Part shown: positions 1 to 22,669 of the stretch, one piece after another
Position numbering within the stretch: position 1 is the first letter of the stretch
How the letters are laid out: every line of letters starts with the position of its first letter
The notes under the pieces: model-generated
The model's database searches: none
Seen by the model: the letters and a program-made list of their open reading frames with translations, nothing else
What the model was told of the DNA's origin: nothing
Translations under genes and position numbers: made by a program
Assembly: GCA_903880015.1 (NCBI GenBank)
Contig: CAIRNS010000013.1
Location: 1-59,670, forward strand
Origin: an uncultured Elusimicrobia bacterium
GTDB lineage: Bacteria; Elusimicrobiota; Endomicrobiia; Endomicrobiales; CAIRNS01
DNA length: 59,670 bases
Direction of reading: 5' to 3'

Positions 1-1315
1 GGCTAAGCCGCTGAAGAATACCGGTCAAGATATTAAAAGAAGCGCCACAGCGAATTGCCTCGTATATTTCAGGAACAACCGAATCTATTGAAAATTGCAA
101 ATGAATATTCTTCCTGCTAAGAATGTTATCCATTTCCTTGTTGATCAATAAACCACTAGTTGTAATATAATGCTCAACAGCAGGGTAACTCGTGGTTATC
201 CGATCCATCAACTTTAAAAAATAATCCACAAGAAAAACCTCCCCTCCCTCCCAATCAATGGACCGGATATAGGGCAATAAGGGAAAAATCTTTTCGCATT
301 CTTTATAAGGAAGGGTTTTGCGGGGCTCCCGTATCCTGCTGCACATAATACACTGCAGATTACATTCGTTCGTCAGAATAAGATGCAGGGATGACGGATG
401 TGCGGTGCAATGCGTTTCAAAAAATACCTCATCATCAAAAAAGATGGCATTTGATAACCGGACATCATCCAGCGTCGTTATATACTGCCTTGCTTTTCTA
501 TACAGCTCTTTCCATACTTCGCTATTTTTCGTTTTTTCTAGCAACAACCTCAAAGCTTCATAAAGCCGTGCCGGATCGTCCGGATGCGCTTGCAACGCAT
601 GCTGAATTTCACTAAACGCCTGCAGATATGATCCTGTTTGCAGATATATCGTGACCAATTCACCGCGAATGCATATCAACGCTTCTCTAGAAAGGACTTC
701 TCCATCGCGGAGCAAAAGATCGATGGCGGCCACATATGCTATCTCTGCCCGAGCCGGATCGCTGATTACCTGACAGGCTTTCCCCAACAAGAGATAAACC
801 GATATCATGCCTGTCGATACAGGCATTATGTTGTTCACCGCTTCGCGAATAAGATCACCATCTCCGGTTTGCAGACAGGTTTCGATATATTCTGTAAATA
901 CTTCTTTGAGTGAAAATGAAAAATCTGTTTTTTTCAGGTCAAAGAATTTCTGAAAGTAGGCAACGGACTTTTGATACTGTTCCAAGCCGCGGGCAATCCT
1001 GGCCAGCTGCAGTTGATACTGTGCGTTGCACGGAGCCAACGCGAATGCTGCGGTGGCCGCCTTCTCCGCTGCAGAGTATTCTTTACGATGTATATATATA
1101 TCTGCCAATTCCCCATATGCGGCCAACTGAACATCTTTGTCGGATGGAAAACGAATTGAACGAATCACCAGCCAGTATGCATCGATCGCCAACATGCTTT
1201 CTTCGTTATCCTTATAGGCCTGCGCCAACTGCAGCAGCAACGAGGGATCGACAGGATTATCTACTAATTGAGCACGTATTTCATTAATACGATCGGAAAG
1301 GAATTCATCCTGCAT
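1..1315 (-). CDS. TPR-radical SAM protein, 3' end beyond the window
   Basis: The frame is open from an ATG at 1315 (GGAGAAA ribosome site 8 nt upstream) through the left edge, giving 438 codons with no stop, so the C-terminus is missing. Residues 1 to about 250 are helical and TPR-like (for example 'LLLQLAQAYKDNEES', 'LYLQTGSY'-type helices). A radical SAM domain follows: the 4Fe-4S motif C318-NLQ-C322-IM-C325, the SAM-binding GGE at 357-359 (context IDWEGGEVF), and a later strand reading FSIDSVVPEIYEAIR. Radical SAM enzymes cleave S-adenosylmethionine to start radical chemistry; SPASM-type members modify peptides, but the auxiliary-cluster region would lie outside the window. It begins 37 nt after tadC and is probably the last gene of the Tad operon. 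The substrate is unknown; modification of a pilin or co-exported peptide is inference. Confidence 0.85.
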   Translation of the reverse strand, partial: MQDEFLSDRINEIRAQLVDNPVDPSLLLQLAQAYKDNEESMLAIDAYWLVIRSIRFPSDKDVQLAAYGELADIYIHRKEYSAAEKAATAAFALAPCNAQYQLQLARIARGLEQYQKSVAYFQKFFDLKKTDFSFSLKEVFTEYIETCLQTGDGDLIREAVNNIMPVSTGMISVYLLLGKACQVISDPARAEIAYVAAIDLLLRDGEVLSREALICIRGELVTIYLQTGSYLQAFSEIQHALQAHPDDPARLYEALRLLLEKTKNSEVWKELYRKARQYITTLDDVRLSNAIFFDDEVFFETHCTAHPSSLHLILTNECNLQCIMCSRIREPRKTLPYKECEKIFPLLPYIRSIDWEGGEVFLVDYFLKLMDRITTSYPAVEHYITTSGLLINKEMDNILSRKNIHLQFSIDSVVPEIYEAIRCGASFNILTGILQRLS

Positions 1316-1352
1316 ATAAGATTTCTCCGCTAATAATGACACTGGCTATGAT

Positions 1353-2243
1353 CTAGAACAGCCCGCCGCCGATAAATGAGAGGGCGATGGGGCCGAAAAG
1401 AATGATGAATATCGTGGGAAATATCAGCAGAATCAACGGCATCATCAACTTAAGCGGTGCTTCTCCCGCCAGTTTTTCCGCCATGTGAAACCGCTCTATC
1501 CTAAATTGCTCGGCGCTATCCCGCAAATTATCCGCCATGCTGCCACCGGTTTTAAGCGATACGATAAAGGCGTTGATAACGGTTGTCACCGGCGGATACT
1601 GTAAGCGTTCAGCAACCCCCCGCAACGCTTCGCCCCGCGACCTCCCAACGATAACCTCCTGTTGGGCAACCTTCAGCTCATCGGTGAATGGCCCCTTTTG
1701 CACCGTGAGAACCCGCTCAAACGCGCGGGAGAAATCAAGTCCCGCGTCCATCATGAGCACCAGCAAATCAAGAACATCGGGTATTTGCCGAAAAACCGCA
1801 AGATGCCGTTCCTTGACTTTGATTCCCAGCATCGCATAGGGGATGAAAAATCCCACAGCAAAAAAAACAATGACCGCAACGGGGGAATAGAGCTCAAAAA
1901 CTATACCTGCAACCATCGTCGTTGCAAATCCGGACAATACCTGGACACCCACGAATGTATATGCTTCCAGGCGATTGTAGGGCGTACCCATAACCACCAA
2001 TTGAGAACGAATCTGTGTGACCATCGCGGCAAAACGGGGATACCTGATCCTCCGCGTGTATGCACCAATCTTTTCCGCAAAAAACAACAGATTCCCGGTC
2101 AAACCCTTATCGTACATTCCGAAAACCGCGCTGACATTTGTTTTCACCCGCCGCTCAATCTGCATTTTGGCGACGGTGTCAAATACAAGGGTCGAGAGAA
2201 TCCCCGCAATACACCCGGATAATACTGCTATCAGGATAATCAT
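1353..2243 (-). CDS. tadC: Tad pilus inner-membrane platform protein TadC
   Basis: Type II secretion F-domain protein of 296 residues. It has an N-terminal membrane helix (MIILIAVLSGCIAGIL), a central pair of hydrophobic helices around residues 105-135, the conserved cytoplasmic segment 'LLVLMMDAGLDFSRAFERV', the glycine-rich 'SLKTGGSMADNLRDSAEQFR' and two C-terminal helices ending in IGGGLF. In Tad systems TadB and TadC form the membrane platform that couples the TadA ATPase to pilin assembly. Its ATG overlaps the stop of tadB, which indicates translational coupling. Order and length match the second, TadC-type copy of the family. Transcription continues toward the TPR-radical SAM gene. Confidence 0.88.
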   Translation of the reverse strand: MIILIAVLSGCIAGILSTLVFDTVAKMQIERRVKTNVSAVFGMYDKGLTGNLLFFAEKIGAYTRRIRYPRFAAMVTQIRSQLVVMGTPYNRLEAYTFVGVQVLSGFATTMVAGIVFELYSPVAVIVFFAVGFFIPYAMLGIKVKERHLAVFRQIPDVLDLLVLMMDAGLDFSRAFERVLTVQKGPFTDELKVAQQEVIVGRSRGEALRGVAERLQYPPVTTVINAFIVSLKTGGSMADNLRDSAEQFRIERFHMAEKLAGEAPLKLMMPLILLIFPTIFIILFGPIALSFIGGGLF

Positions 2244-3139
2244 ACTGATACATTCACAATCTTATCAATCATATACGCGCCTGCTGAAATCATGACAATA
2301 ACCGCCAGCAGCATCAGATTACCTAAAAATGTCGTAAACAAAAGTTCAATCATCGACGGCTCCATGGCGTAGAGCAACCCCAGCAGAACGAACGGGATGA
2401 TGCTCATGATCATACCTGACGCCCGTCCCTGGGCAGTCAACGCATTGACTTTCCCTTGGATTTTCCGCCGTTCGGCAATGGTTGACGCGACGCGCGTGAG
2501 TATCTCGGCGAGATTGCCGCCAGTTTCCTTGGCAAGATGGATTGCATTAACTGCCATGACAACATCAGCGGTGGGCACGCGGCGGGCAAAACCCTGCAGT
2601 GCATCAAACAGCGGCGTTCCGAACCGCATTTCGGAAACCATCTGGGAAAATTCGAACGATAACGGTGGCTGCGATTCTTGGGTTAAAAATTCCAGTGCCT
2701 GCTGCAGGGATTGCCCTGCACGGACACTATTGGCAATCATCGTCAGTGCTTCTGCAAGTTGAAGGTTTATGCGATCACGGGACCGTTTCTCCTGACGGAT
2801 ACTATACGCATACATCCCTCCCGTGCCGACCACTGCGCATATCAATGCAAAGAGCATTTTACCCGTTGCCATTTCACCGCATAGAAATAATCCCATGGCA
2901 AGCACCGCCATAATTTTTTTTGAGCGGCGGGACCGACGATCCTGCGCCAACTCTGCAACCGCGCTTTTGACCATTGTGCCGATTGAAATAATGGTGCGCG
3001 GTTTATTGACCGCAGCCGAAGCAGGAATCGTTCGCGGGCGCAACCAGTGGCGAAAAAAATGCAATGACACAACACTCACGGCAACACCGGCTGCCCCAGC
3101 CGCACCGATTATGCATACAGGGAAAACAAGAGCATTCAT
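2240..3139 (-). CDS. tadB: Tad pilus inner-membrane platform protein TadB
   Basis: A 299-residue type II secretion F-domain protein with a hydrophobic N-terminus, a second membrane stretch around residues 75-110, the cytoplasmic core 'ALTMIANSVRAGQSLQQAL', the glycine segment 'AKETGGNLAEILTRVASTI' and two C-terminal helices (IPFVLLGLLYAM and LMLLAVIVMISAGAYMI). It is the first platform gene, overlapping the ATPase gene upstream and tadC downstream by 4 nt each, so all three are read as one coupled unit. TadB and TadC are taken to assemble the pilus platform in the inner membrane. Assignment as TadB rather than TadC rests on order and on the longer N-terminal part. Confidence 0.88.
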   Translation of the reverse strand: MNALVFPVCIIGAAGAAGVAVSVVSLHFFRHWLRPRTIPASAAVNKPRTIISIGTMVKSAVAELAQDRRSRRSKKIMAVLAMGLFLCGEMATGKMLFALICAVVGTGGMYAYSIRQEKRSRDRINLQLAEALTMIANSVRAGQSLQQALEFLTQESQPPLSFEFSQMVSEMRFGTPLFDALQGFARRVPTADVVMAVNAIHLAKETGGNLAEILTRVASTIAERRKIQGKVNALTAQGRASGMIMSIIPFVLLGLLYAMEPSMIELLFTTFLGNLMLLAVIVMISAGAYMIDKIVNVSV

Positions 3140-5175
3140 GCTTTGCCACCGGATGAAAATAACGTTGCTTCCATAGGCAGACCGTACACAGCTGCTTCAT
3201 CGATAAAACTACTCATATTCCCGGAAGCGATAAACCGCCCGGTTGTCTTGCCCTCATGTATACCGGTCCTCTCATAAGAAAATATCGGCATCTGGTTAAT
3301 GCCGTCAGAATCTAAACCGCGCACTTCGGTTATGGCAACAATTTTTCGCGATCCGTCAGGCATACGGCTTAATTGTATAATCACCTGTATTGCAGCAACG
3401 ATTTGTTCCCTGATAGCCCGTTCCGGCAGTTCCGTCCCCGCCATAATGACCATGGTGGTCAAGCGGGCAACCGCATCGCGCGGCGTGTTGGCATGCAGCG
3501 TTGTCAGAGAACCGTCGTGACCGGTATTCATCGCCTGCAGCATGTCCAGAGTTTCACCGCCCCGGCATTCTCCGACAATAATCCGATCGGGGCGCATGCG
3601 CAGGGCGTTAACCACCAGACGGCGAATCGAAATGTCACCTTTGCCCTCCATTGACGGCGGACGCGCTTCCAGGCGAACAACATGATTTTGCGGCAAATTG
3701 AGTTCAGCGGAATCTTCGATGGTGACGATGCGTTCATCTGCAGGGATGAACGAAGAGATAACATTGAGCAGTGTTGTCTTTCCGGAGCCCGTACCACCGG
3801 AAATCACAATATTCTTGCGCAGACGCACGCAGATCCGCAGATATTCCGCCATGGCGGGCGATAAAGCATCAAAAGCGATAAGATCATCGATTGAAAGGGT
3901 TCGTTGAGAAAATTTTCTGATGGTCAGCACCGGTCCGGTGAGTGAAATGGGAGCTATAACGGCATTGACGCGCGAACCGTCGGGAAGACGGGCGTCAACC
4001 AGCGGAGAGGTCTCGTCCACCCGGCGGCCGATGGGCGCAACGATTCGATCGATCACGGTTAACAACTGGCTGACGGAAGTAAACTGCGCGACGGTGCGCC
4101 GTATTCTTCCCTTTATTTCAATATACACATTATCCGGACCATTGACCATTATTTCCGTAACAGACGGATCTTTTAAATATTCTTCTAAACACCCCAACCC
4201 CAATGCTTCATCCAATACTTCATCTATGAACTGCGGTCGGGCATCGCGGGACAGGCAATGATCCAGCGTTGATAGTTTTTCAGCAATGATGTCGCGAGCG
4301 CGATTGCGAAGAACAGCGGGCGCAATATCGACGGGAGTATTTTTGAGTTCATTGACCAGCGCTGCGTGTATGGTGCGTTTCAACGCTATAATCGCGTGAC
4401 GGTCATTCGCCGAATCCGCCTCAGCGAGAGGGCGATTAGTGGATTCCATGGACGATTTTTCAATGATGGTTTTGACCCAGTCAGCAATACTGCGCGCAAA
4501 CGGGCTCGCCGGCTGGCCTTTCACCTGAGGAAGACCCTTGGCGACAGCATCGGACAGTGCCGAAGAATCGCAGGGTATGCGGGCATAGACTCGACTTTCA
4601 AGAATTTTTTCAATTTGCTCAACCGACAACTGCCCGGAACCGCCGCAATCAACGGCAGCGAACATGCACGAGCGCGCATCAATATGACGGCGGCTGAGAC
4701 GCTGCGCGAACGACGCGGCATACTGTGTATACAACAAATCTGATTGCACCGGAATGACGATATGGGCGGATGCAGCAAGAATAGTATCGGCGATAGCGCA
4801 CGGGGCGAAATCGCATAACGGAAGAACGACCCAGTCGTGAGCTTCGATGAGCGATGTAAGTACGCCTGAAAAGATAGTAGCGTCAAGAGTATCGCAGTGG
4901 CTGCTGCCCAGCAGTGTTATGGAACCGGTGTATTTCGAAAGAAAACCCGCTAAGAGAGCGGCATTGAGCGATGGGTGCAGTGCAATCAGGTCATCCAAGG
5001 ACTTTTCGGGCGACTGATGAAGAAGTATTCCCCATTCATCGCTGTCGCTTAACGGAGAAGCCATGAGCAGAATTCTTTGATTGGCGTGTGCTGAGAGAGC
5101 AATAGCAAGATTTGCAGCAAAAACCGCCGACGGTATACTGCAGGCAGCGCCGCACACTGTAATGAGTTTACCCAT
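3136..5175 (-). CDS. Fused TadZ/CpaE-like domain plus TadA/CpaF secretion ATPase
   Basis: A 679-residue two-domain protein. Residues 1 to about 235 have the MinD/ParA-like fold of CpaE/TadZ (start MGKLITVCG..., then NLAIALSAH, later '[18 protein letters not shown]'), but the P-loop position reads GAACSIPSA (residues 9-17) instead of KGGVGKT, so the ATP-binding lysine is missing. Residues about 260-679 are a CpaF/TadA secretion ATPase: Walker [11 protein letters not shown] at 459-468, Walker [10 protein letters not shown] near 531-539, and the His-box TLHANTP near 559-565. TadA powers pilus assembly and TadZ localises the apparatus, usually from separate genes. It lies 26 nt after cpaB and overlaps tadB. 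CpaF symbols fit only the C-terminal half. Confidence 0.9.
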
Positions 5176-5201: not shown

Positions 5202-6080
5202 CTATTTCTGTTGGTATTTTTTCAGCAATGCAATAGCTTCCTGTTGTTTTATGCGCACCGCTTCCGTCGATTCGCGGGATGCGGTTGACACATCGCCGGC
5301 GCTTTGGTTTTTCATGGTAATGGTCATTTCACGAGCTATATCCTGCATTTTCATTGCTTTAACTTCCCGCAGTTTATCATCACCGGTGGGGCGAAGCGAG
5401 AGCCGTACCGTCCCGCGTTCAGTCGCAAGTATCATAATCTCGGCTTCTACCGGGGTAACGGAGAACGAGACAGCCACTTTACCCATATCCATTTCCGGCG
5501 TTTCGCGGTTTTTATTTCCCGCACCGACAACTTTTGACATCCCCAGCATATTTTTCCCGGCGGCGAGGACTAATACATTCTGTAGAACGGTATATGCGCC
5601 TTCAGACGCATGACGGTCTTTATCTTCCCCTTGAAAAATACTGATAACATCCACGCGATTCCCCGGTTTGACGATCCCGTTGACCATTTCGTTGTCAAGC
5701 AATACGGTTACCGCCCGGCGATCTGTCGGGATTATGCTTGATATGCCCGTCTCTTCTCCCAGAAGAGACAATTTTGTCGTGATTATCTGCTCGCCCTTCT
5801 CTATCGGCACGAGCGCCATAAACATGCGCCGGCCGTCCTTTGCCGTAAGCTCTTTGAGAGACTGCACGGCACGGGGCTGCAGATAATCTTTGGGGACCGT
5901 TTTCTCTTCCACCATGGATTCATCGAGCATGGTTCCCTGATCGATATAGTTTTTCGCCAGCAAAACGACAACCTTCTGCGTGCCGTTTTTGTACGCTGTC
6001 TCAAGGTTGACCAAATACAAACCGACGAACAATGCCGTTAATATCCCGCACACGATTGCAATCATCAAAGATCGTTTCAT
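5202..6080 (-). CDS. cpaB: Flp/Tad pilus assembly protein CpaB (RcpC)
   Basis: A 292-residue protein with one N-terminal membrane anchor (MKRSLMIAIVCGILTALFVGL), then a SAF-type beta domain (VVVLLAKNYIDQGTMLDESM) and a second conserved block 'PTDRRAVTVLLDNEMVNGIV' with 'KPGNRVDVISIF', both typical of CpaB/RcpC. CpaB is a periplasmic part of the Tad machine that works with the secretin. It is the first Tad gene here, with an AGGAGAAA ribosome site at good distance, and the ATPase fusion follows after 26 nt. No secretin (cpaC), prepilin or prepilin peptidase gene is in the window, so the rest of the system must lie elsewhere. Confidence 0.9.
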   Translation of the reverse strand: MKRSLMIAIVCGILTALFVGLYLVNLETAYKNGTQKVVVLLAKNYIDQGTMLDESMVEEKTVPKDYLQPRAVQSLKELTAKDGRRMFMALVPIEKGEQIITTKLSLLGEETGISSIIPTDRRAVTVLLDNEMVNGIVKPGNRVDVISIFQGEDKDRHASEGAYTVLQNVLVLAAGKNMLGMSKVVGAGNKNRETPEMDMGKVAVSFSVTPVEAEIMILATERGTVRLSLRPTGDDKLREVKAMKMQDIAREMTITMKNQSAGDVSTASRESTEAVRIKQQEAIALLKKYQQK

Positions 6081-6191: not shown

Positions 6192-6770
6192 CTATTGCGC
6201 TCTGCTACCGGGTTTGACGGCGGGGGTGCCTTCTTTGCAGAGTGGACATACTTCAGGTTTGTAACTGCTTACTTCAAGGCAGAGAAGTGAAGAAAAGGGA
6301 ACGCCGAAACTCACTTTTCCGGCACTGCGATCGACGAGCGATGCAACCCCGACAACTGCACCACCCAGCGCCGTTACTACATCAACAACTTCACGGGTGG
6401 ACAATCCCGTCGTGACCACATCTTCGACCACCAGGACTTTTTCCCCTTTGCCCAGAGAAAAACCACGGCGCAAAACAAGTTTTCCATCAACCCGTTCACA
6501 AAAAACCGCACGACAACCCAAAGCACGGCCCATCTCCTGCCCGATAACGATCCCCCCCAACGCAGGAGACACAACAACATCGATTTTCGGCGTAGCTGCC
6601 ATAACCTTTTCGGCCAGCGCGGATGCGATTTGTGCGGCATGCACAGGATGTTGAAGAATCAGGGCCGATTGGAAATAGGTATCAGAATGCAGTCCGCTCG
6701 ATAATAAAAAATGTCCCGAAAGCAATGCCCGGGCGTTAATGAATAATTGTTTAACCGCCGATGAATCCAT
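6192..6770 (-). CDS. pyrE: Orotate phosphoribosyltransferase
   Basis: PyrE, 192 residues, transfers the phosphoribosyl group of PRPP to orotate to give OMP, the fifth step of UMP synthesis. Visible are the N-terminal substrate segment 'HFLLSSGLHSDTYFQSALIL', the loop 'VVSPALGGIVIGQEMGRAL', and the PRPP-binding signature 'VLVVEDVVTTGLSTREVVD' with its acidic pair followed by TTG. The C-terminus carries an extra CPLC pair of cysteines within 'YKPEVCPLCKEGTP', which occurs in several bacterial PyrE proteins. It starts 41 nt after pyrF and is the last gene of the pyrimidine run before Tad genes begin. Confidence 0.95.
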   Translation of the reverse strand: MDSSAVKQLFINARALLSGHFLLSSGLHSDTYFQSALILQHPVHAAQIASALAEKVMAATPKIDVVVSPALGGIVIGQEMGRALGCRAVFCERVDGKLVLRRGFSLGKGEKVLVVEDVVTTGLSTREVVDVVTALGGAVVGVASLVDRSAGKVSFGVPFSSLLCLEVSSYKPEVCPLCKEGTPAVKPGSRAQ

Positions 6771-6811
6771 TATTTCTCTCCCTTATGATATGGTCGCTAC
6801 TGCGTATGCCA

Positions 6812-7456
6812 TTATATCCGTTCTATCTGTTCCGCTATGGACTGCGCTGCAGCAGCAGGATCCTTTGCCTCAATGATCGGACGACCAACAACGATAAAAT
6901 CAGCGCCGGCGGCAACTGCTTCCTTCGGCGTCGCGGTGCGTTTCTGGTCGTCAGCAGTTTCCACCACCCGTATGCCCGGGGTTGTAACGGTAAATCCTGT
7001 GCCGCAGGCTTTCTTTATAGCACTTATTTCAAGCGGTGAGGCAATGACCCCGTCGACTCCGCTGTCCGCCGCGGAACGCGCCCGTGCGATGACCTCCTCG
7101 GGAGTGGTAACCTGACTGGTCAACACCGTCACCGCCCATATCTTAGGGCGGGGCGACACCTGCGCGGCAGCTTTCATCATTTCCGCGCCGCCGCAAGAAT
7201 GAATCGTCAATGAATATACACCGAGCTGTTGCGCCGATTCGACGGAACGCCGGACTGTCGCGGGAATATCATGAAATTTCAGGTCGAGAAAAACCTTTTT
7301 CTCGAGTGCATGGATAGCCCTGATAAGCGCCGGACCTTCTGACAAAAACAGAATCGGACCGACCTTAAATATGTCAACCCATGGCGAGAGTGTCTTAACC
7401 AACGACAACGCGACAGGACCGTCCTTTACATCAAGTGCAACAATCAGTTTTTTCAT
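6812..7456 (-). CDS. pyrF: Orotidine 5'-phosphate decarboxylase
   Basis: PyrF, 214 residues from the ATG at 7456, decarboxylates OMP to UMP, the last step of the pathway. The start is MKKLIVALDVKDG; a longer reading would run into the upstream gene and add unconserved residues. The catalytic Lys/Asp region reads 'KKVFLDLKFHDIPATVRRSV', as in class I PyrF (DxKxxDIP pattern). The end carries the phosphate-binding 'ADFIVVGRPIIEAKDP'. The start codon lies 2 nt beyond the stop of the sulfatase-fold gene upstream, so the two are tightly linked. pyrE follows. Confidence 0.95.
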   Translation of the reverse strand: MKKLIVALDVKDGPVALSLVKTLSPWVDIFKVGPILFLSEGPALIRAIHALEKKVFLDLKFHDIPATVRRSVESAQQLGVYSLTIHSCGGAEMMKAAAQVSPRPKIWAVTVLTSQVTTPEEVIARARSAADSGVDGVIASPLEISAIKKACGTGFTVTTPGIRVVETADDQKRTATPKEAVAAGADFIVVGRPIIEAKDPAAAAQSIAEQIERI

Positions 7457-7457
7457 A

Positions 7458-9533
7458 TTATTTACCCGTTTCCTTAAGGAGATAATCGGCGATAGCGACC
7501 GCCGACCTATACTGTTTGACCAGCCCGCTATGCAACGATTCCGACGGGGATTCAACGAGGCGGCGGGTAGCCGATGACTCCCACAGAAAATAGTGGGTTG
7601 CATTGTTTTCTATTGAATGGCGCACCGCGCCGGCAGGTGTCATGACCAAGCCGTCGACATTATACGCAGCATGGGGCTGCGCCTGGTCAAGCATATCGCG
7701 CCCTTCTGTCATATACTGAGCGCTGGAGAGCGACAGAGCATAGACCGTGGGCATGATGTCAATGTGTGAACCGAACACAGCAGTATCAATTGACGCGGGT
7801 TTAACCCCGGGCGGTACATAAAGGTAGAACGGCACGCCGTCCATGTCAAGGTAGCGGTCTGCACCGTAATCAAACACGCTCCAGAAATTATGATCGCCGG
7901 TTACCGCCACTATCGTGTTGCGGGCGTATTCAGATTTCTTCAAACGCGTGAGGAACTCACCCAGTTTTGCACACGCATATTGATAGGTCTCAAATCTTCC
8001 CTGCGCAAGCTTTGTATCGCCGGTAATGAGTTTTTTTAGTTCAGGCGAAGGGGTAAGCGGCAGCGGCTTGTATCCGGACGGCAGAGAATATGGCGGATGG
8101 TTGCTGGTCGATAAAGCGAAAATAAACTTTGGCTTTCCCGAGGAAGTATCGGAGAGTTTCCGAAACACATAGTCGAACAAATGTTCGTCGTAAACACCCC
8201 ATTGATTGCGTTCATATGACGACGGCATGGCGCCCGATCCCAGGGATGTGTCAAACCCCATCCGCGGAAGGAATGACAGCACATTGCGCCACCCGATGTT
8301 CCCACCGTAGAGAAAAATCGTTTCGTACCCCGCACGCCGGTAGGGAAGCGCTGCACCGAATGGATAATTTTTAAACGCATATCGAGACTGGGTGATTGGT
8401 TTTGCCATCGGCCGTTTGGGGAGGGATGTAATAATTGCCTCTAAACTCCCGATAGTGCCGACATCGCCTGACAAGAAGTTATAAAACACCGTGTCGGCGT
8501 CAAAATGTTCTTTCAACTCCCCCATCACATTAAACGAAGGAGAATTGTAGTGCATAAGGTCCGTACCGAACCCTTCCATCATGATGACGATAACATTAAG
8601 CTTATTGCGTTCGCGCACCGCATTGTATTTCGTGTATCTGACCAGATTCTGCGGCAGAACGGGGTCGAGAGCTGCTGCTTCCTTGCCTATAAAATCGGCG
8701 AACGCCTGCGGCATCGCGTCTTTGTATCCGGTTTGAGCGGACACATCGTAATCGCGGTTTTCCTTCATGCGGAATTCAACGGCTTCTTGGAGGGTAAACA
8801 CGCCGTTTAAGCACAGCTTGTTAATGAAGAGGTCCGGCGATACTTCAGCGTCCATCACTCCCAGCGGGAACAACGCGAATGACCCTCGCGCCGCTATGAA
8901 ATTGAGTGACAGCAGAGCAAACAGTATCCCCACTTTTCCCCATGCGCCTATACGCGTGTTGGTATGCGCAATAATCTGATACACATCGGTAAGTTGATGG
9001 GGGCCTTTGAAACTCATAATGCGGAAAACAAGGGCAAAAATAAAAACAAACAGAGCGGCGAACCCGCCGGCAGCCGCATACAGATTGTAATTAGATTGAA
9101 TGGTTGACCACAACGCGCGGGTATCATCGTCAAAGATACCGAATATCAGGATATTAATATGATTTTTGAAATACGAGAAGAATCCGAAGTCGAAAAACAA
9201 GACAATAAATAATACAGAGAACAACACGAAATAATACCATCTAACCAGCTTTTGCCATTTATTAAACAGAGATTCACTCCGGAACAACCACACAGGGATA
9301 AAAGAAAAAGTTACGAGGCCATTGATGTATGCAACAACGGCAAGATCATACCGGGCACCCATAAAAAACGCCTTGAGCACATAGGCGATATGCGATGAAA
9401 GATACGCTATATCGCCGTAATAAAAGCAAAAAACAAGGCGATACACCGACATAAGAAAAAGCACGGCTGCATTAAGCAGTATAACGCGCCCGATAAATCT
9501 GATGATCCGTAAAAAGGGAATATCTTGAAACAT
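7458..9533 (-). CDS. LTA synthase-family membrane phosphoglycerol transferase/sulfatase
   Basis: A 691-residue protein of the LtaS/MdoB sulfatase superfamily. Five or so hydrophobic helices fill residues about 10-220 (near 13-33, 55-82, 98-120, 150-172, 198-216). An extracytoplasmic alkaline-phosphatase-like domain follows: metal-binding 'NVIVIMMEGFGTD' with E320, probable nucleophile T360 in DVGTIGSLEA, then VTGDHNFWS and FGSHIDIMPTV. Relatives transfer glycerol phosphate from phosphatidylglycerol to lipid- or glucan-linked acceptors; the acceptor here cannot be told from sequence. It sits between pyrD (5 nt) and pyrF (1 nt) and must be co-transcribed with them, though no metabolic link to pyrimidines is obvious. 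Confidence 0.85.
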   Translation of the reverse strand: MFQDIPFLRIIRFIGRVILLNAAVLFLMSVYRLVFCFYYGDIAYLSSHIAYVLKAFFMGARYDLAVVAYINGLVTFSFIPVWLFRSESLFNKWQKLVRWYYFVLFSVLFIVLFFDFGFFSYFKNHINILIFGIFDDDTRALWSTIQSNYNLYAAAGGFAALFVFIFALVFRIMSFKGPHQLTDVYQIIAHTNTRIGAWGKVGILFALLSLNFIAARGSFALFPLGVMDAEVSPDLFINKLCLNGVFTLQEAVEFRMKENRDYDVSAQTGYKDAMPQAFADFIGKEAAALDPVLPQNLVRYTKYNAVRERNKLNVIVIMMEGFGTDLMHYNSPSFNVMGELKEHFDADTVFYNFLSGDVGTIGSLEAIITSLPKRPMAKPITQSRYAFKNYPFGAALPYRRAGYETIFLYGGNIGWRNVLSFLPRMGFDTSLGSGAMPSSYERNQWGVYDEHLFDYVFRKLSDTSSGKPKFIFALSTSNHPPYSLPSGYKPLPLTPSPELKKLITGDTKLAQGRFETYQYACAKLGEFLTRLKKSEYARNTIVAVTGDHNFWSVFDYGADRYLDMDGVPFYLYVPPGVKPASIDTAVFGSHIDIMPTVYALSLSSAQYMTEGRDMLDQAQPHAAYNVDGLVMTPAGAVRHSIENNATHYFLWESSATRRLVESPSESLHSGLVKQYRSAVAIADYLLKETGK

Positions 9534-9538
9534 AAAGA

Positions 9539-10447
9539 TTAACAGCGGACGCTGCCGACTAACTCCTTAATATTAATTATACCGTAGCGTTCCATATACG
9601 ACCGCAGTCCGCTGACAATCTTTTCCGGCACGCCGGGATCAATAAAATTGGCTGTCCCCACGCTCACGGCACTGGCACCGGCCAGTAAAAATTCCACAGC
9701 ATCTTCAGCGGTCATGATACCCCCACCGCCGATTATCGGCGCCTTGAGCGCCCGGTACACTTCCCACACTGCCCGGACCGCCATCGGTTTAATTGCCGGG
9801 CCTGATAACCCGCCGGTGACAAAAGCAATCTTCGGCTTGCGCGTGGCGATATCAATCGCCATCGCCGGAAAAGTATTTATCAATGAAACAGCGGTTGCCC
9901 CAGCGGTCATCGCGATCTCCGCCATGGCAACGATATCCGTGACCTGCGGGGAAAGCTTTGCAATCACCGGCACGCGCGAGGCCTTGCTCACCGCGGCAAC
10001 AATCGCCCGCACTAATTTTGGATCCTGACTGATTATTTTTTTCTGGAGATTGGGACAGGAAAGATTAAGTTCAATACCGGCTATCCCGCGTACGCCGTCA
10101 AGTTGATGTGCAAGACGGACATATTCTTCGACGCTGTTTCCCGCAATGCTGACAATTATGTTCACCTGCAGGGCGCGCAAGGCGGGTAGTTTTTCTTGTA
10201 AAAACCGTTCAGCACCTATATTCTGCAACCCGATTGCATTGATCATGCCGCCGGTTACCTCGCATATCCGCGGCGGCGGATTACCGGGTCGCGGTTGGAG
10301 CGTAATGGTTTTGGTGATGATTCCGCCTAATTTTCCGACACTGACCAAATCGGTAATCTCGTCACCATAACCGAATGTTCCCGACGCCATCAGAACGGGA
10401 TTGTCGAGTTTAAGAGCGCCTATGCGTGTTGCCAGAGATGGTTTCAT
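9539..10447 (-). CDS. pyrD: Dihydroorotate dehydrogenase B, catalytic subunit
   Basis: Class 1B dihydroorotate dehydrogenase, 302 residues, oxidising dihydroorotate to orotate with FMN. The catalytic base is a cysteine, C131 in 'GIELNLSCPNLQKK', as in class 1 enzymes (class 2 membrane forms use Ser). FMN-binding landmarks are 'NPVLMASGTFGYGDE', TKTITLQPRPGNPPPRI, 'APIIGGGGIMTAEDAVEFL' and ASAVSVGTANF. It pairs with PyrK encoded just upstream, which passes the electrons to NAD. The gap to pyrK is 60 nt and contains only a small GC hairpin (CCCC/GGGG around 10470-10490). Confidence 0.95.
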   Translation of the reverse strand: MKPSLATRIGALKLDNPVLMASGTFGYGDEITDLVSVGKLGGIITKTITLQPRPGNPPPRICEVTGGMINAIGLQNIGAERFLQEKLPALRALQVNIIVSIAGNSVEEYVRLAHQLDGVRGIAGIELNLSCPNLQKKIISQDPKLVRAIVAAVSKASRVPVIAKLSPQVTDIVAMAEIAMTAGATAVSLINTFPAMAIDIATRKPKIAFVTGGLSGPAIKPMAVRAVWEVYRALKAPIIGGGGIMTAEDAVEFLLAGASAVSVGTANFIDPGVPEKIVSGLRSYMERYGIINIKELVGSVRC

Positions 10448-10507
10448 AGATATATATCCATGTTCATGATAGTATCCCCTTCGGGAAAGAGGGATCTTGC
10501 GACATTG

Positions 10508-11263
10508 TTACACGTTAAAGACGGGGCCGTCTTTGCAGACCATTTTATATTCGTTGCCGATTTTAACCGCGCAACCTTGGCAGTTTCCCATACCGCACGC
10601 CATCATTGACTCAAGGGATATCTGAGAAACAATGCCGTGTGCTGCTGCGGCAACGGTGACGGCGTCAAGCATCAACTTCGGCCCGCAGGCGAACACCGCC
10701 AGCGGAGAGGACGCGGAGGATTGTTCGGCAAGAAATTTTTTGAACATGTCCGTCACCAGCCCTTTGTGACCGCAGGATCCGTCATCAGTGGCAAGATGCA
10801 GCTGCCACTTTCGGGCACGAAACTCTTTGAGGCAGAGCAAATCCTTCTTAGTGCGAGCACCGTAAAAGAGTTTTCCGGACTGGGATATGCGTTGAGCAAG
10901 AAAATGCAGAGAAGCGATACCGGTCCCTCCGGCCACGATGACCGGGATGGTTCCTGGGGACACAGCATCGAATTCATACCGGGTACCGAGCGGGCCCAGA
11001 ATGCCCAGTGAGGAACCCGGCTTCATCAACGACAAATATTCAGTGCCAGCGCCGACTATCTTATACAAAAACGAAAGCCGCCCTTTGTCAGCATCGTAGA
11101 CGCTGAACGGTCGGCGCAAAAACACGCCGGGGACGCGTAACATAAAAAATTGGCCGGGGCGGGAGTTTCGCGCCATTTTCTGAGCATCGACGACAAGGCG
11201 GACATATCCCGGGCCGACCATTTTATTTTCAATAATGGTTACGGTTTCATTGGTGCGGGCCAA
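10508..11263 (-). CDS. pyrK: Dihydroorotate dehydrogenase B, electron-transfer subunit
   Basis: PyrK, 251 residues, carries FAD and a [2Fe-2S] cluster and hands electrons from PyrD to NAD+. FAD-binding 'VFLRRPFSVYDADKG' and NAD-binding 'VIVAGGTGIASLHFLAQ' are present, and the C-terminus carries the cluster ligands C-GMGN-C-QG-C...C within MACGMGNCQGC and 'YKMVCKDGPVF'. The frame begins with TTG at 11263, giving MARTNETVTIIENK, inside the last codons of pyrC (25-nt overlap), with a G-rich stretch 9 nt upstream. An ATG at 11221 is the alternative but would cut the first beta strand. Confidence 0.92.
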   Translation of the reverse strand: MARTNETVTIIENKMVGPGYVRLVVDAQKMARNSRPGQFFMLRVPGVFLRRPFSVYDADKGRLSFLYKIVGAGTEYLSLMKPGSSLGILGPLGTRYEFDAVSPGTIPVIVAGGTGIASLHFLAQRISQSGKLFYGARTKKDLLCLKEFRARKWQLHLATDDGSCGHKGLVTDMFKKFLAEQSSASSPLAVFACGPKLMLDAVTVAAAAHGIVSQISLESMMACGMGNCQGCAVKIGNEYKMVCKDGPVFNV

Positions 11264-12528
11264 ACGACGGTACCCCCCACTATGGTTATTTCAGGGAAGC
11301 CCCTGAGTACGCGCCCGATGAACGGCGAATTCTTGCTCTTTGATTTAAAATCAGCGGCGGTGTACGCATATTCTTTTTTGGGATCGATAATGGTAATGTC
11401 GGCATGATAGCCAATTTTGAAGGTTCCCCGCCCCGCAAGATTAAAAAGGGTTGCCGGCAGTATGGTCATTTTTGCTATCGCTTCAGACCAGGACAAGACC
11501 TTGGTTTCAATGAGTTCCGTGACCACCAGGCCCAGCATCGTCTCAAGACCTATGATGCCAAACGGCGCCAAATCGTATTCCTTGTTTTTACCCTCTTCGG
11601 TATGCGGCGCATGGTCTGTGCATATACAATCGATCGTCCCGTCCCGCAACCCTTCCTTGATGGCAGCGACATCGGCAGCGCCGCGCAACGGCGGACTCAT
11701 TTTCGTATTGGTATCGTAATTTTTTACTACATCGTCAGTAAGGGTAAAATAATGCGGACAGGTCTCCGCCGTCACCTGTATGTTCTTTTTCTTTGCCTGG
11801 CGTATAAGATCAACCGAACCGGCTGTCGATACATGCGCGATATGTAAAAATCCGCCGGTTAACTCTGCCAGCATGATGTCGCGGCTTACCATAACCTCTT
11901 CGCCCTGGCGCGGAATGCCCCGCAAGCCCAGAGAAGTAGAGGTATATCCGGCGTTCATCACCCCGTTTTTGGTGAGATTGCGGTCTTCGCAATGAGAGAT
12001 GACGGGGAGCTTAAACATCTTTGCGTATTGGAGCGCGCGGCGCATCACTTGAGAATTCATGACGGGATTGCCGTCATCGGAAATAGCGACGACGCCCGTG
12101 CGTTTGAGCACACCGATCTCAGCTAATTCTTCGCCCATGGACCCTTTAGTCACACAACCGATCGGGAACACATTGACGATGCCCTCTTTTTGAGCCTTGA
12201 GCAAAATAAACTCGACTGCTGGCGCATTATCAATCGGGGGATGCGTGTTGGGCATGCATAAAATCGTGGTTATACCGCCATGGGCAGCGGCCCGGGTACC
12301 GGAGGCGATGGTCTCTGCCTCTTCGTGGCCGGGCTCACGCAAATGCGTATGAATATCGATAAGACCCGGAACAACCATCTTCCCGGAAGCCTCGATGACC
12401 TGAGCCCCCGCGGCAGCGATACCGGGCTTGACCTCGGCAATTTTACCGTCAACGACAAGCACATCGGCACGGGACTCGAATTTTTGTCCCGGATCGATGA
12501 CCATGCCGTTCTTAATGAGCAATTTCAT
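11239..12528 (-). CDS. pyrC: Dihydroorotase
   Basis: Type I dihydroorotase, 429 residues, closing N-carbamoyl-aspartate to dihydroorotate. Zinc-site residues are visible: H60 and H62 in 'GLIDIHTHLREPGHEEAET', 'VISHCEDRNL', 'GFLHIAHVSTAGS' and the metal-binding Asp in ICTDHAPHTEEGK. The C-terminal 'GYHADITIIDPKKEYAYTA' belongs to the beta-sandwich of the amidohydrolase family. All active-site landmarks are intact, so this is an active enzyme rather than a PyrC-like scaffold subunit. ATGA overlap with pyrB indicates coupled translation. Confidence 0.95.
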   Translation of the reverse strand: MKLLIKNGMVIDPGQKFESRADVLVVDGKIAEVKPGIAAAGAQVIEASGKMVVPGLIDIHTHLREPGHEEAETIASGTRAAAHGGITTILCMPNTHPPIDNAPAVEFILLKAQKEGIVNVFPIGCVTKGSMGEELAEIGVLKRTGVVAISDDGNPVMNSQVMRRALQYAKMFKLPVISHCEDRNLTKNGVMNAGYTSTSLGLRGIPRQGEEVMVSRDIMLAELTGGFLHIAHVSTAGSVDLIRQAKKKNIQVTAETCPHYFTLTDDVVKNYDTNTKMSPPLRGAADVAAIKEGLRDGTIDCICTDHAPHTEEGKNKEYDLAPFGIIGLETMLGLVVTELIETKVLSWSEAIAKMTILPATLFNLAGRGTFKIGYHADITIIDPKKEYAYTAADFKSKSKNSPFIGRVLRGFPEITIVGGTVVWPAPMKP

Positions 12529-13451
12529 ATCTTATCCTTCTGTCCCGAAAGCAGATACAGGACCGCCATGCGGACGGCAATGCCGTTGGTCACTTGTTCA
12601 TTGATGACCGCCGCGGCGCTATCGGCTACCTCGGAAGATATTTCTATTCCCCGGTTCATGGGGCCAGGGTGCATGATGAGCACATCGTGTTTTGCCAAAC
12701 GCAGCCGGTCGCCGTTCATCTGATAGAGCGCCACATATTCATGGACCGAAGGAAACAGGTTATCCTGTTGGCGTTCCAACTGGATTCTCAGGATGTTGAT
12801 AACATCGACATCTTTAAGTGCTTCGTCAAGGTCATAAAACACTTTGACCCCAAAATCTTCTATCGCGGGAGGAATCAATGTCGGCGGACCAACGACGCGG
12901 ACATCGGCGCCCATTTTTTTAAGCGCCCAGATATTTGATTTTGCAACCCGGCTGTGCAGAATATCGCCTACAAGCAATACTTTGAGCCCCGCTATCCGCT
13001 TCTTTTTTTCAAGGATGGTATACATGTCCAGCAACCCCTGCGTCGGATGTTCGTGGAATCCGTCGCCGGCGTTGATGATACGCGCGTTGAGATTACGCGC
13101 CAGTATTGCGGGTGCACCCGCTAAACTGTGGCGGATGATAATAAAATCGGCTTTCATGGCTTCCAGCACTTTGCCGGTATCGATCAAGCTTTCGCCTTTA
13201 ACAACGCTCGAATTAGCAACCGCGACATTGACCACATCAGCCGACAAGCGCTTTGAGGCAATTTCAAACGATGTGCGGGTACGGGTGGAGGGTTCATAGA
13301 AGAGATTGACGACGGTTTTTCCGCGCAGAGTGGGCACTTTTTTTATGGAACGGGTGAACATGCTTTTAAATGGTTTTGCCGTCTCAAGAATCAGTTCGAT
13401 TTCTTTTTTGTCTAAATGCTCAAGGTCCAGCAAATCCTTGTGATTAAACAT
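12525..13451 (-). CDS. pyrB: Aspartate carbamoyltransferase, catalytic chain
   Basis: PyrB, 308 residues, joins carbamoyl phosphate and aspartate. The carbamoyl-phosphate site is FYEPSTRTRTSFE (residues 51-63), with 'HEHPTQGLLDMYTILEKK' and the late motif 'VLIMHPGPMNRGIEIS'. No regulatory chain pyrI is adjacent, so the enzyme is presumably a catalytic trimer, possibly complexed with the neighbouring dihydroorotase as known in some bacteria. It overlaps pyrR upstream by 8 nt and pyrC downstream by 4 nt, the classical pyrR-pyrB-pyrC order. Confidence 0.95.
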   Translation of the reverse strand: MFNHKDLLDLEHLDKKEIELILETAKPFKSMFTRSIKKVPTLRGKTVVNLFYEPSTRTRTSFEIASKRLSADVVNVAVANSSVVKGESLIDTGKVLEAMKADFIIIRHSLAGAPAILARNLNARIINAGDGFHEHPTQGLLDMYTILEKKKRIAGLKVLLVGDILHSRVAKSNIWALKKMGADVRVVGPPTLIPPAIEDFGVKVFYDLDEALKDVDVINILRIQLERQQDNLFPSVHEYVALYQMNGDRLRLAKHDVLIMHPGPMNRGIEISSEVADSAAAVINEQVTNGIAVRMAVLYLLSGQKDKI

Positions 13452-14025
13452 GGGCGTCCCCTGATGAGATGGTTTTTAATACGATGCGGTCTTGGCCGTC
13501 AACTTCTTCCAGCTCGACCGATATTGATTCTTCCCGCGCCGTAACAAATTTCTTGCCGACATAATTGGGTTCAATAGGGAGTTCCCGGTGGCCACGGTCA
13601 ACAAGTACCGCCAGCTCAATACTGCGGGGCCGGCCAAAATCCATCAACTCGTCCATAGCCGCGCGGATACTGCGACCCGTAAAGACAACATCATCCACAA
13701 GGATTATTTTTTTGTCGGTAATATCAAAAGGGATTTCTGTCTCACGGATAAGAGGGGTGGTTGAAATGGTGCTTATATCGTCCCGGTAGAGGGTAATGTC
13801 GAGCTTTCCAAAAGCAACATCGTCAGCCGAGGGCGTCAACTGCGCGGCGACCATTTCATTGATGATGCGACGCGCCAGATGTACACCGCGCGTCTGGATA
13901 CCGATGATAACGAGGTTTTTTACATTTCCATGCTTTTCGACTATTTCCGCCGCAAGCCGCTTGACCGTGCGGCTGATTTCTTCCTTGGTCATGACCACTT
14001 TAATTGCGTCGTGCATTTCGGCCAT
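13444..14025 (-). CDS. pyrR: PyrR regulator / uracil phosphoribosyltransferase
   Basis: PyrR, 193 residues, type I phosphoribosyltransferase fold with the PRPP motif 'IILVDDVVFTGRSIRAAMD' and the PyrR-typical 'RPRSIELAVLVDRGHRELPI' and 'PNYVGKKFVTAREE'. In Bacillus and relatives PyrR binds a conserved hairpin in pyr mRNA when UMP is high and promotes termination; it also has uracil phosphoribosyltransferase activity. I looked upstream of purE and in the small pyr gaps and did not find the usual anti-antiterminator loop sequence, so an attenuation role is unproven here. Its start overlaps purE by one base. Confidence 0.93.
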   Translation of the reverse strand: MAEMHDAIKVVMTKEEISRTVKRLAAEIVEKHGNVKNLVIIGIQTRGVHLARRIINEMVAAQLTPSADDVAFGKLDITLYRDDISTISTTPLIRETEIPFDITDKKIILVDDVVFTGRSIRAAMDELMDFGRPRSIELAVLVDRGHRELPIEPNYVGKKFVTAREESISVELEEVDGQDRIVLKTISSGDAHV

Positions 14026-14555
14026 TATTTCACCATTCCCCTGAGATATGCCTCAAGACCCATAGATGAAAGTTTCGTATCTTTACCGACAACGGCGGAA
14101 GCCATCTTCTCGCGGTATTGTTTAAGTTTTTTTTGCAGCGACCGATCGGCAACTGCGATTATCTGCGCCGCAAGGATAGCCGCATTTCCCGCGCCGGCCG
14201 GCCCGACCGCAACGGCAGCAACCGGTATGCCGGGAGGCATCTGCGCAATGGACAGCAGCGCGTCAAGCCCAGCAGCCGTTTTACCTTCCATCGGAACACC
14301 GATGACCGGCAATATGGTCTCAGCAGCAATAACACCCGGCAGAGCAGCGGACATTCCCGCCGCCGCAATAAACACTTTCGCCCCGCGTGAAACCGCTATT
14401 TTAACGCATTTCCTGACATGTTCAGGCGTACGGTGCGCCGAAGCGATATTGATTGAAAATGCAAGACCAAGATCATCCAATATCTTCACTGTGGTCTTCA
14501 TGACCGGGGCGTCTGAATCAGAACCCATGATAACTGCTACCTGTATCTTATTCAT
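14025..14555 (-). CDS. purE: PurE, AIR-carboxylation enzyme (mutase or carboxylase form uncertain)
   Basis: PurE, 176 residues, makes 4-carboxy-AIR. The N-terminal MGSDSDAPVMK loop and the catalytic histidine H41 in ASAHRTPEHV are present. The second active-site loop reads AGMSAALPG (residues 66-74), where ordinary class I enzymes have a histidine (GGAAHLPG or GMAAHLPG). Class I PurE isomerises N5-carboxy-AIR supplied by PurK; class II uses AIR and CO2. No purK lies in the window. The sequence otherwise looks class I, for example 'LSIAQMPPGIPVAAVAVG'. It heads the pyr run and overlaps pyrR by a base. Confidence 0.92.
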   Translation of the reverse strand: MNKIQVAVIMGSDSDAPVMKTTVKILDDLGLAFSINIASAHRTPEHVRKCVKIAVSRGAKVFIAAAGMSAALPGVIAAETILPVIGVPMEGKTAAGLDALLSIAQMPPGIPVAAVAVGPAGAGNAAILAAQIIAVADRSLQKKLKQYREKMASAVVGKDTKLSSMGLEAYLRGMVK

Positions 14556-14611
14556 CCCGCAGACCTTTCGCCGGCAGACCGCTTATCCGCCGAAGTCAAT
14601 TAAGCATCTAA

Positions 14612-14640
14612 ATTCTATCAAATATATGCAATTTATTCAA
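14612..14640 (-). promoter_or_regulatory. Candidate sigma-70 promoter of the purE-pyrR-pyrBC... run
   Basis: On the minus strand TTGAAT (14635-14640), a 17-nt AT-rich spacer and TAGAAT (14612-14617) lie 57 nt before the purE start. It would transcribe purE, pyrR and the pyr genes. The -35 box matches four of six consensus positions, the -10 box five of six. Confidence 0.5.
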
Positions 14641-14660
14641 AATTTATAAGGTGCCAAAAC

Positions 14661-14770
14661 ATTAACGGCCACACCGGCAGAGCAAGCTCTGCAGCTACAA
14701 CAGCACCGTTAACGGCATGCAATCATTGTTTGTAAGTAGTTTTGTAGCCGCGAAGCTTGCTTCGCCGCCG
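14661..14770. repeat. Pair of inverted small palindromic repeats between purD and purE
   Basis: This is the bulk of the 236-nt gap between purD and purE. Copy A (14674-14700, ccggcagagcaagctctgca...) and copy B (14742-14770, ttgtagccgcgaagcttgct...) are the same 27-29-bp unit in opposite orientation; each has a self-complementary core (GCAGAGC/GCTCTGC; GCGAAGC/GCTTCGC). Copy A is also bracketed by TTAACGG (14662-14668) and CCGTTAA (14706-14712). It looks like a REP-type extragenic repeat that could act as an attenuating or mRNA-stabilising hairpin. Confidence 0.6.
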
Positions 14771-14791
14771 TTAGAAGGGTTTCATTAAAAA

Positions 14792-16069
14792 TTAGGAAAG
14801 GGCTTTTTTGCCGATGTCGGTGCGGAACTGCATACCGTCAAAGGAAATACAGGAAACTGCCTGATAGGCAGCGGTGATTGCTTGTCCGGTGGTTGATCCG
14901 GTACCGGTCACGCCCAGCACGCGGCCGCCGGCGGTTATCGTTTCTCCAAGGACATTTTTTGCTGTGCCGGCGTGAAAAACAGCGACATTTTTCATGGCGA
15001 CTGCAGTGTCAAGACCGTCTATGACGGCATTCTTGGCGTATTCTCCGGGATACCCCTTCGCTGCAAGTACCACGCACACTGCGGATTTATGATGCCATTG
15101 GATGTCCGCGGTTTTGAGGCGCCCCGCATGAACCGCTTCAAAGATTTCTATCAGGTCGGTTTTAAGAAGCGGAAGGACAACCTGCGTTTCGGGGTCTCCA
15201 AAACGGCAGTTAAACTCGAGAACTGACGGAATCCCTTTATGAATCATCAAGCCAATATACAGCACGCCGGTATAGTGTATCCCCTCGGCAACAAACCCTG
15301 CAATAAGCGGTTCTATAATAGTTTTTTTTACTTTATCTGTAAGAGAATCCGTCAGCAACGGGGCCGGCGCGTATGCACCCATCCCGCCGGTATTGGGTCC
15401 CGCATCATGATCGAATATTCTTTTATGATCCTGGGCCGCCGGCATAAGCGAATAGTTTTTTCCATCGACAAAAAGTTGAAGCGACGCTTCCTGTCCCTCG
15501 AGGAATTCTTCTATCACGACCTCTTTGCCCGCTGCGCCAAATGATTTTTTCTGCATAATAGCAGCAATCGCGTCAAGTGCTTCCCCGGTGGTATCGCATA
15601 TGATAACACCTTTGCCGCCCGCCAACCCGTCCGCCTTGACCACCAACCGTGTTTGCGCCGGCAATGACCGCACATACGCTCCGGCAGCTGCAGAATCAGT
15701 AAACGATTCATATCGGGCAGTAGCAATAGCGTATTTTTTCATCAATCGTTTTGCAAACGCCTTGCTTGCTTCAAGCTGCGCGGACTTTTTATCCGGCCCG
15801 AAAATGGCAAACTTTTTCTGTTTGAAAGCATCGACAATACCCAGTGACAACGGAACTTCAGGACCGACCACGGTAAGATCGATGCCCTTTTCCTCAACAA
15901 AAAGCAACAACCGCGCAATATCGTCGGCGTTAATGGGAACGCACTCGGCATGCTGAGCGATTCCCGCATTTCCGGGCGCACAAAATATTTTTTTTACACG
16001 CGGGCTCTGAATCAGTTTCTCTACCAGAGCGTGTTCCCGCCCGCCTGAGCCGACCACAAGCACTTTCAT
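14792..16069 (-). CDS. purD: Phosphoribosylamine-glycine ligase (GAR synthetase)
   Basis: PurD, 425 residues from the ATG at 16069 (MKVLVVGSGGREHALVEKL), an ATP-grasp enzyme that joins phosphoribosylamine and glycine. The ATP-grasp block 'LVVKADGLAGGKGVIICDT', the 'HDAGPNTGGMGAYAPAPLL' segment and 'LEFNCRFGDPETQVVLPLL' are all intact. An in-frame extension of 28 codons upstream lies inside purF and is not conserved, so the internal ATG was chosen; it sits 4 nt after the purF stop. No purN or purT follows, so the next formyl-transfer enzyme must be elsewhere. Confidence 0.95.
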   Translation of the reverse strand: MKVLVVGSGGREHALVEKLIQSPRVKKIFCAPGNAGIAQHAECVPINADDIARLLLFVEEKGIDLTVVGPEVPLSLGIVDAFKQKKFAIFGPDKKSAQLEASKAFAKRLMKKYAIATARYESFTDSAAAGAYVRSLPAQTRLVVKADGLAGGKGVIICDTTGEALDAIAAIMQKKSFGAAGKEVVIEEFLEGQEASLQLFVDGKNYSLMPAAQDHKRIFDHDAGPNTGGMGAYAPAPLLTDSLTDKVKKTIIEPLIAGFVAEGIHYTGVLYIGLMIHKGIPSVLEFNCRFGDPETQVVLPLLKTDLIEIFEAVHAGRLKTADIQWHHKSAVCVVLAAKGYPGEYAKNAVIDGLDTAVAMKNVAVFHAGTAKNVLGETITAGGRVLGVTGTGSTTGQAITAAYQAVSCISFDGMQFRTDIGKKALS

Positions 16070-16073
16070 ATGG

Positions 16074-17740: not shown

Positions 17741-17766
17741 ACCATGGCTCCTTTGTAATGATAGTG

Positions 17767-22640: not shown

Positions 22641-22669
22641 GATTTAAAATCTCGTTGAACCAAAAATAT

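Follow-up and report, generated by a model that had tools for sequence, protein, structure and literature searches.

A stretch of 59,670 nt from an uncultured Elusimicrobia bacterium (contig CAIRNS010000013.1) is referred to as the window. Four Tad genes form a tight run in the order cpaB, a cpaE-cpaF fusion as the second gene, tadB and tadC. The features are as follows, with residues counted in the fusion protein:

5202..6080, minus strand: CpaB/RcpC, the gene preceding the fusion (TIGR03177, E 2.7e-37, over cut-off; PF16976)
3136..5175, minus strand: TadZ-TadA (CpaE-CpaF) fusion gene, 679 aa (single open frame; PF00437 T2SSE; full-length AlphaFold2 model)
4441..5175, minus strand: TadZ/MinD-fold domain, residues 1-245 (AlphaFold2; Foldseek; profile search)
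5125..5151, minus strand: eroded P-loop GAACSIPSA, residues 9-17, GGKGGVGKS in relatives (alignments)
4411..4440, minus strand: short linker joining both halves, about residues 246-255 (pLDDT <50 at 247-256 in the full-length AlphaFold2 model)
4201..4413, minus strand: helical region where CpaF has NTD1, residues 255-325 (helices 255-277, 286-303 and 312-325 in the AlphaFold2 model)
3334..4200, minus strand: TadA/CpaF ATPase core, residues 326-614 (PF00437, E 3.2e-63)
3772..3798, minus strand: intact motor Walker A GGTGSGKTT, residues 460-468 (sequence; alignment)
2240..3139, minus strand: TadB-like platform protein, sharing 4 nt with the end of the fusion gene (PF00482 T2SSF, E 3.6e-19)
1353..2243, minus strand: TadC-like platform protein, overlapping tadB by 4 nt (PF00482 T2SSF, E 9.8e-15)

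The 679-aa frame lies exactly at 3136-5175 on the minus strand, which bears out a preliminary description in which one protein was said to carry both a MinD/CpaE-like part and a CpaF ATPase. The CpaB/RcpC gene is the sole copy in the window's genome. Directly past tadC, a frame at 2-1342 (minus strand) leaves the contig; by eye it is TPR-repeat-like and then shows a radical-SAM motif, CNLQCIMC, and it may share a transcript with the Tad genes. Positions 6192-24000, adjoining the Tad genes on the same strand, are dense with pyrimidine- and purine-synthesis-like genes (by eye).

The motor half and the remaining Tad genes

T2SSE (residues 326-614) was the only Pfam family over cut-off in the fusion protein. 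The top-scoring NCBIfam model was TIGR03819, with 328.9 bits at a cut-off of 373, and all five other fusions scanned also stayed under that cut-off (326-344 bits). The core is of the T2SSE/VirB11 type and contains the Walker A, Walker B and His residues of a TadA/CpaF motor; it is encoded together with TadB and TadC, and Flp and TadE are encoded elsewhere in the genome. Residues K466, G535-E536, H553 and H561 were invariant in an alignment of 44 fusion sequences, as were G460, G461, T462, G463, G465, K466 and T467 of the motor Walker A, in agreement with the earlier statement that the CpaF ATPase is complete. The fusion protein is read as a Tad (Flp) pilus motor, and its catalytic residues are intact. 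It is the one TadA-type motor in the window's genome, the other three matches falling in frames that look PilB/PilT-like by eye.

A Flp pilin of 60 aa (C15:19429) and a TadE-like gene (C15:18871) both scored over cut-off in the window's genome. This pilin/TadE region, C15:18838-19599, is on a contig other than that of the motor genes, so the Tad genes are either separated into groups or widely spaced. In G119, G035 and G075, TadE/Flp are found near the motor on the same contig. Only two secretin matches were obtained in the window's genome, on contigs C1 and C10, in T4P/T2SS-like gene runs with pilin-like, PilM-, PilN- and PilO-like frames around them (by eye). A short secretin frame of about 240-270 aa, present in several relatives and located near the Tad genes in G119 and G035, was not found in the window's genome. 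Two relatives encode, besides the fused gene, a short unfused CpaF near a short secretin frame (L119:17388-18608, 407 aa; L121:4509-5564, 352 aa).

Fold and identity of the N-terminal domain

The AlphaFold2 model of residues 1-250 had a pLDDT of 92.1 and a pTM of 0.91. The full-length model (pLDDT 86.6, pTM 0.57) showed two well-folded parts connected through residues 247-256, where confidence is low, in the arrangement of a MinD domain, a short linker, three helices at the place of CpaF NTD1 and then the motor. The nearest solved structure to the domain model was 3ea0, a ParA-family ATPase (Foldseek E 5.8e-14; Z 26.1 over 236 residues, 2.5 A), followed by MinD, FlhG, FleN and Soj, so the earlier expectation that residues 1-235 fold like MinD proved right. 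Searches with the window's sequence were much weaker. No family was matched in a Pfam search of the first 242 residues alone, NCBIfam returned a weak archaeal MinD match (residues 136-239, E 3e-6), and the N-domain alone reached ParA/MinD among solved structures at E 0.002-0.09 (3ea0 0.002, 1hyq 0.012). Since these single-sequence matches were weak, the MinD reading was a reasonable guess that needed a profile as proof. A profile of 44 fusion N-domains matched 3ea0 at E 2.9e-41 and, at E 6.8e-8, 3fkq, which we take to be the TadZ of E. rectale. With this profile match to 3ea0 and a Z of 26, a chance likeness was ruled out; the resemblance of the domain to MinD is far beyond chance.

TadZ/CpaE is the protein that usually places the Tad machine in the cell. 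Among loci with an unfused CpaF, CpaE precedes CpaF, which is the order inside the fusion, and the CpaE-like frame ended within 152 nt of the CpaF frame in 29/34, many at 4-15 nt. These 34 were counted out of 37 CpaE-like frames found; left out were L083 (264 aa, at a distance of 5.7 kb), one frame of L084 that has 188 aa, and L116, which is the ParA-like gene of the window's own genome. At fused loci, a separate CpaE was detected in 0 of 48; the flanks covered did not exceed about 1.5 kb in 30 of these loci and extended to as much as 8 kb in the other 18. In the window's genome, with a size of 1.81 Mb and a completeness of 99.9%, the domain profile gave two matches: the fusion itself and, on contig 2, a ParA-like protein of 265 aa. 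No further TadZ-like gene was recovered by this search. A PF13614 search did not detect the window's domain itself, so that a still more eroded free TadZ might have escaped notice; the profile search is the more sensitive of the two.

Separate CpaE proteins carry about 80-235 residues ahead of the MinD domain, and Response_reg was matched in 4/5 of those scanned versus 0/5 fused N-domains. The fused N-domains start at or near the gene start and have no such REC half. In the window's protein the domain takes up the sequence from residue 1 onward, and upstream of the ATG the open frame extends for only 51 aa; the REC half is thus absent. The fold match to 3ea0, the cpaE-cpaF gene order and the profile match to 3fkq all uphold the proposal that a TadZ domain is fused to TadA. 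The domain has the MinD/ParA fold of TadZ/CpaE and, in relatives, its gene position directly before cpaF (29/34). It has neither the N-terminal atypical REC half nor, by sequence, the deviant Walker A with which TadZ/CpaE binds nucleotide. The N-terminal domain is a MinD-fold domain derived from TadZ/CpaE. Since tests for the REC half and for the nucleotide motifs showed both to be lacking, the protein falls short of a full TadZ and is classed as a TadA/CpaF motor bearing a TadZ-derived pseudo-ATPase domain.

Distribution of the fusion and erosion of the nucleotide motifs

A scan of genome contigs yielded 80 loci, 18 of them fused. Outside the window's phylum, fused loci were found in Bdellovibrionota, Omnitrophota, an Acidobacteria record, Eremiobacterota, a WOR-3 record and others. 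Inside the phylum, 270 of 294 sampled genomes matched the fusion protein. The best matches supplied 30 loci of this phylum, one of them the window, and every one was fused, as were 35 of 37 further stretches spanning other families of the phylum. The two exceptions were L157, a 449-aa frame without an N-domain match, which may be due to a contig end, and L150, a doubtful case at 18.9 bits. Thus, the fusion is the rule in the window's phylum. Its recurrence in many genomes also excludes an oddity or an assembly error of the window's genome. In a plasmid search, the five best matches covered mainly the CpaF part, and among the 5000 records kept a single one had a site that spans 80% of the query.

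In a short search on a CpaF tree with 110 rows, the fused/unfused label required 3 changes compared with a shuffled mean of 36, and the starred branches forced only 1 change. Many independent fusion origins were rejected on these numbers; the fusion had few origins, the number of which is uncertain. The preliminary description had implied that the fusion is rare, and this does not hold in view of its presence in several phyla and in nearly all members examined in the window's phylum. The converse suspicion, that the fusion is common and already described, was right on the first point only, no account of a TadZ-TadA fusion having been found in the literature searched (open-licence full texts). 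What stands out at this locus is the decay of motifs, not the fusion itself, which is widespread.

As noted earlier, the P-loop of the window's domain reads GAACSIPSA. It aligns with GGKGGVGKS of fused relatives, therefore the lysine is truly absent. The signature residues Lys11, Gly13, Gly15 and Lys16 are all replaced, the Asp pair of Walker A' is replaced by A39 and P41, and the strand on which relatives have the Walker B Asp is VVLPLCDF in the window's protein (alignment, by eye), so that Walker A, A' and B are all lost. A P-loop was scored as complete with both glycines and the lysine. Complete P-loops were present in 12/15 fusions of other phyla and 26/33 fusions in other classes of the window's phylum, and in 0/30 fusions of the window's class, where classes were assigned by kinship labels and L089, labelled outside the class, sits in the same clade on the tree. 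These counts and the alignments A1 and A2 are without L108 (a near-copy) and L028, L035 and L045 (fused, divergent); the counts are also without L157 and L158 (no P-loop reading) and L150. In the window's class both glycines were kept in 1/30, the second acidic residue of Walker A' in 2/30 and the first in 29/30. The window is the exception with A39 at this first position and is therefore among the most eroded of the set. The absence of the REC half, the disappearance of nucleotide motifs beyond the P-loop, the probable overall loss of ATP binding and the class-wide extent of the loss were all missing from the preliminary description.

Separate CpaE proteins kept Lys16 in 12/34 and both glycines in 34/34, and among the fused rows loop-glycine loss was confined to the window's class and one Acidobacteria fusion (L034). 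Judged from these alignments, loss of the lysine alone is ordinary in TadZ, and the motif loss is a property of the window's whole class. The domain lacks the KGGxxK[ST] motif and the catalytic Asp of MinD/ParA ATPases and is therefore treated as a pseudo-ATPase domain of MinD fold; the ability to bind ATP has probably been lost altogether. A short search of the CpaF tree with 78 scored rows (no bootstrap) gave 4 changes for eroded versus the rest and 10 for three states, and the window sits on a long branch, so P-loop loss as one clean event was rejected. The fusion as the cause of P-loop loss was rejected as well, as 22/34 separate CpaE proteins are without Lys16 and 38/48 fusions outside the window's class are intact. 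In the other classes of the phylum (L111-L113, L124-L156), the P-loop is mostly GPKEGVGKT/S, an unusual MinD variant, and many rows have Pro at the position of the first Walker A' Asp (VPLD).

Selection was estimated from pairs of relatives, the set covering one genome of the window's own family. For the closest eroded domain pairs, NG86 omega was 0.075 (L092/L093), 0.127 (L101/L104), 0.108 (L103/L107) and 0.134 (L102/L107), with dS of 0.8-1.6 near saturation; the CpaF parts of the same pairs gave 0.034-0.055. For more distant eroded pairs of the window's class omega was 0.18-0.37, and at saturated dS it reached 0.7-0.8 in pairs that include the far row L034. The median dN ratio of domain to CpaF was 3.2-3.6 without a complete P-loop versus 2.4-2.9 in intact sequences. 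From the low omega of the closest pairs and the faster dN of incomplete P-loops, the eroded domain of the relatives is under purifying selection, looser but kept. The window's domain is 9-25% identical to the other domains, and L085, its nearest relative by motor, shares 21% identity in the domain and 74% in the motor. Therefore, with omega coming from relatives only, the window's protein may be in a special state.

Role of the domain and comparison with known systems

The explanation we favor, with a probability of roughly 0.55, is a single Tad motor in which a TadZ-derived domain was joined to the N-terminus of TadA and nucleotide handling was then lost, leaving a tethered pseudo-ATPase scaffold. 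The neighbouring cpaE and cpaF genes of ordinary loci would have been joined, with CpaE losing its REC half. If the protein is hexameric like CpaF of C. crescentus (PMC11300603), covalent fusion would place six TadZ domains around the motor, fixed 1:1, each held on NTD1 by a linker of about ten residues. Such a linker would keep the domain at the motor, so that ATP-driven recruitment or dimerisation would be unneeded and the motifs could decay. The tether would supply the contact that free TadZ obtains by ATP-driven dimerisation and motor binding, and the domain, as a scaffold, may link the motor with the membrane platform, or with a site in the cell, and need no ATP cycle to do so; the targeting role and the hexamer layout are what we infer. 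A simple decay caused by tethering is countered by the many fusions that keep their nucleotide motifs (38/48 outside the window's class). The proposed geometry is made plausible by the ring densities around the CpaF hexamer of C. crescentus in situ, which were fitted with CpaE dimers (PMC13170226), and by the archaeal FlaI-FlaH pair, which works best at 1:1 (PMC6011876). Copy number counts against the favored explanation, since the C. crescentus fit has six CpaE dimers, i.e., twelve copies and not six.

The main rival, unlikely in our judgment, is that the domain gates the motor instead of positioning it, replacing the disordered NTD0 of ordinary CpaF and tuning extension versus retraction. 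In the full-length model the domain sits exactly at the place of NTD0, ahead of the NTD1 helices, and NTD0 helps retraction in C. crescentus, where its removal lowered retraction and left phage infection unaffected (PMC11300603, in part). KilF, another Tad-like motor, has an FHA domain at the same end (excerpt of PMC8460266). However, fold and gene order are those of TadZ, no other TadZ was found in the genome for placing the machine, and gating and positioning are not exclusive.

A relic under relaxed selection, kept only by being in frame with an essential motor, would account for the loss of all nucleotide motifs in the window's domain and for a domain whose rate of change is about threefold that of CpaF, and higher where the complete P-loop is missing (3.2-3.6 versus 2.4-2.9). 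We consider it improbable in view of the omega of 0.075-0.134 in the closest eroded pairs, the intact predicted fold (pLDDT 92) and the distance from domain end to CpaF core, which stays at 62-98 residues in the first set of 48 fusions. Highly improbable is a domain whose altered pocket still accepts a nucleotide or some other small ligand and which passes a signal to the motor. Separate TadZ proteins, often without Lys16, do keep the glycines in 34/34, and ATP binding is documented for a TadZ whose Walker A is atypical (PMC13170226); the window's class, however, keeps both glycines in 1/30 and the second Walker A' acidic residue in 2/30.

Returning to the tethered scaffold, the whole class might run its Tad pilus with a permanent, nucleotide-independent ring of six (not twelve) TadZ domains, a 1:1 scaffold with the ATP cycle deleted; we regard this extension as tentative, at somewhat less than even odds. 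If true, the essential job of TadZ would be structural. The fusion bears on the role of TadZ/CpaE in the Tad pilus, its need for ATP and its copies per motor, as the ratio is set by the natural fusion itself, and the properties that TadZ can do without are shown by a clade lacking ATP motifs in the same domain. The eroded fusions are a natural test of whether the TadZ part needs ATP at all, and the intact, Lys-less and eroded fusions within one phylum form a ready comparison set.

Compared with CpaF of C. crescentus, the window's protein has the same VirB11/TadA-type motor, NTD1 helices (a 3-helix motif in PMC11300603), ATPase core and intact catalytic residues. In C. crescentus a disordered NTD0 and a separate CpaE are present, whereas a folded MinD-type domain occupies that place in the window's protein. 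Its domain shares with TadZ/CpaE (E. rectale TadZ, C. crescentus CpaE) the MinD fold and, in relatives, the coding position beside CpaF; it differs in having no REC half, P-loop, Walker A' or Walker B Asp and in being fused to the motor. According to PMC13170226, TadZ can bind ATP in order to dimerise. Twelve fusions of other phyla (L005, L006, L007, L008, L010, L011, L014, L016, L019, L027, L036 and L044) have the same domain order and a similar length but contain a complete P-loop (KGGVGKT/S, KGGIGKS). The available part of a paper on the Bdellovibrio hit locus mentions "flp pilus ATPases" and gives no domain structure there (PMC3818213).

KilF of the Myxococcus Kil system resembles the window's protein as a Tad-like motor with an extra N-terminal domain, which is FHA in KilF and of MinD type in the window, where an FHA domain had no Pfam match and the fold is that of MinD. 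The joining of an FHA domain to a Tad-like motor has thus been published (PMC8460266), unlike a MinD-type fusion, for which the literature searched gave no description. TadZ has been treated as a secondary Tad ATPase standing at the place of FlaH in the related archaeal system (PMC6668835, in part). The FlaI-FlaH pair of the archaellum is like the fusion in that the motor hexamer works at 1:1 with a second ATP-binding protein, one that does not hydrolyse ATP. In PMC6011876, stimulation of the motor FlaI by FlaH is strongest at 1:1, and FlaH depends on nucleotide to bind FlaI well. In contrast to the fusion, FlaI and FlaH are separate proteins, the second ATPase is of RecA type, and nucleotide binding still matters in FlaH.
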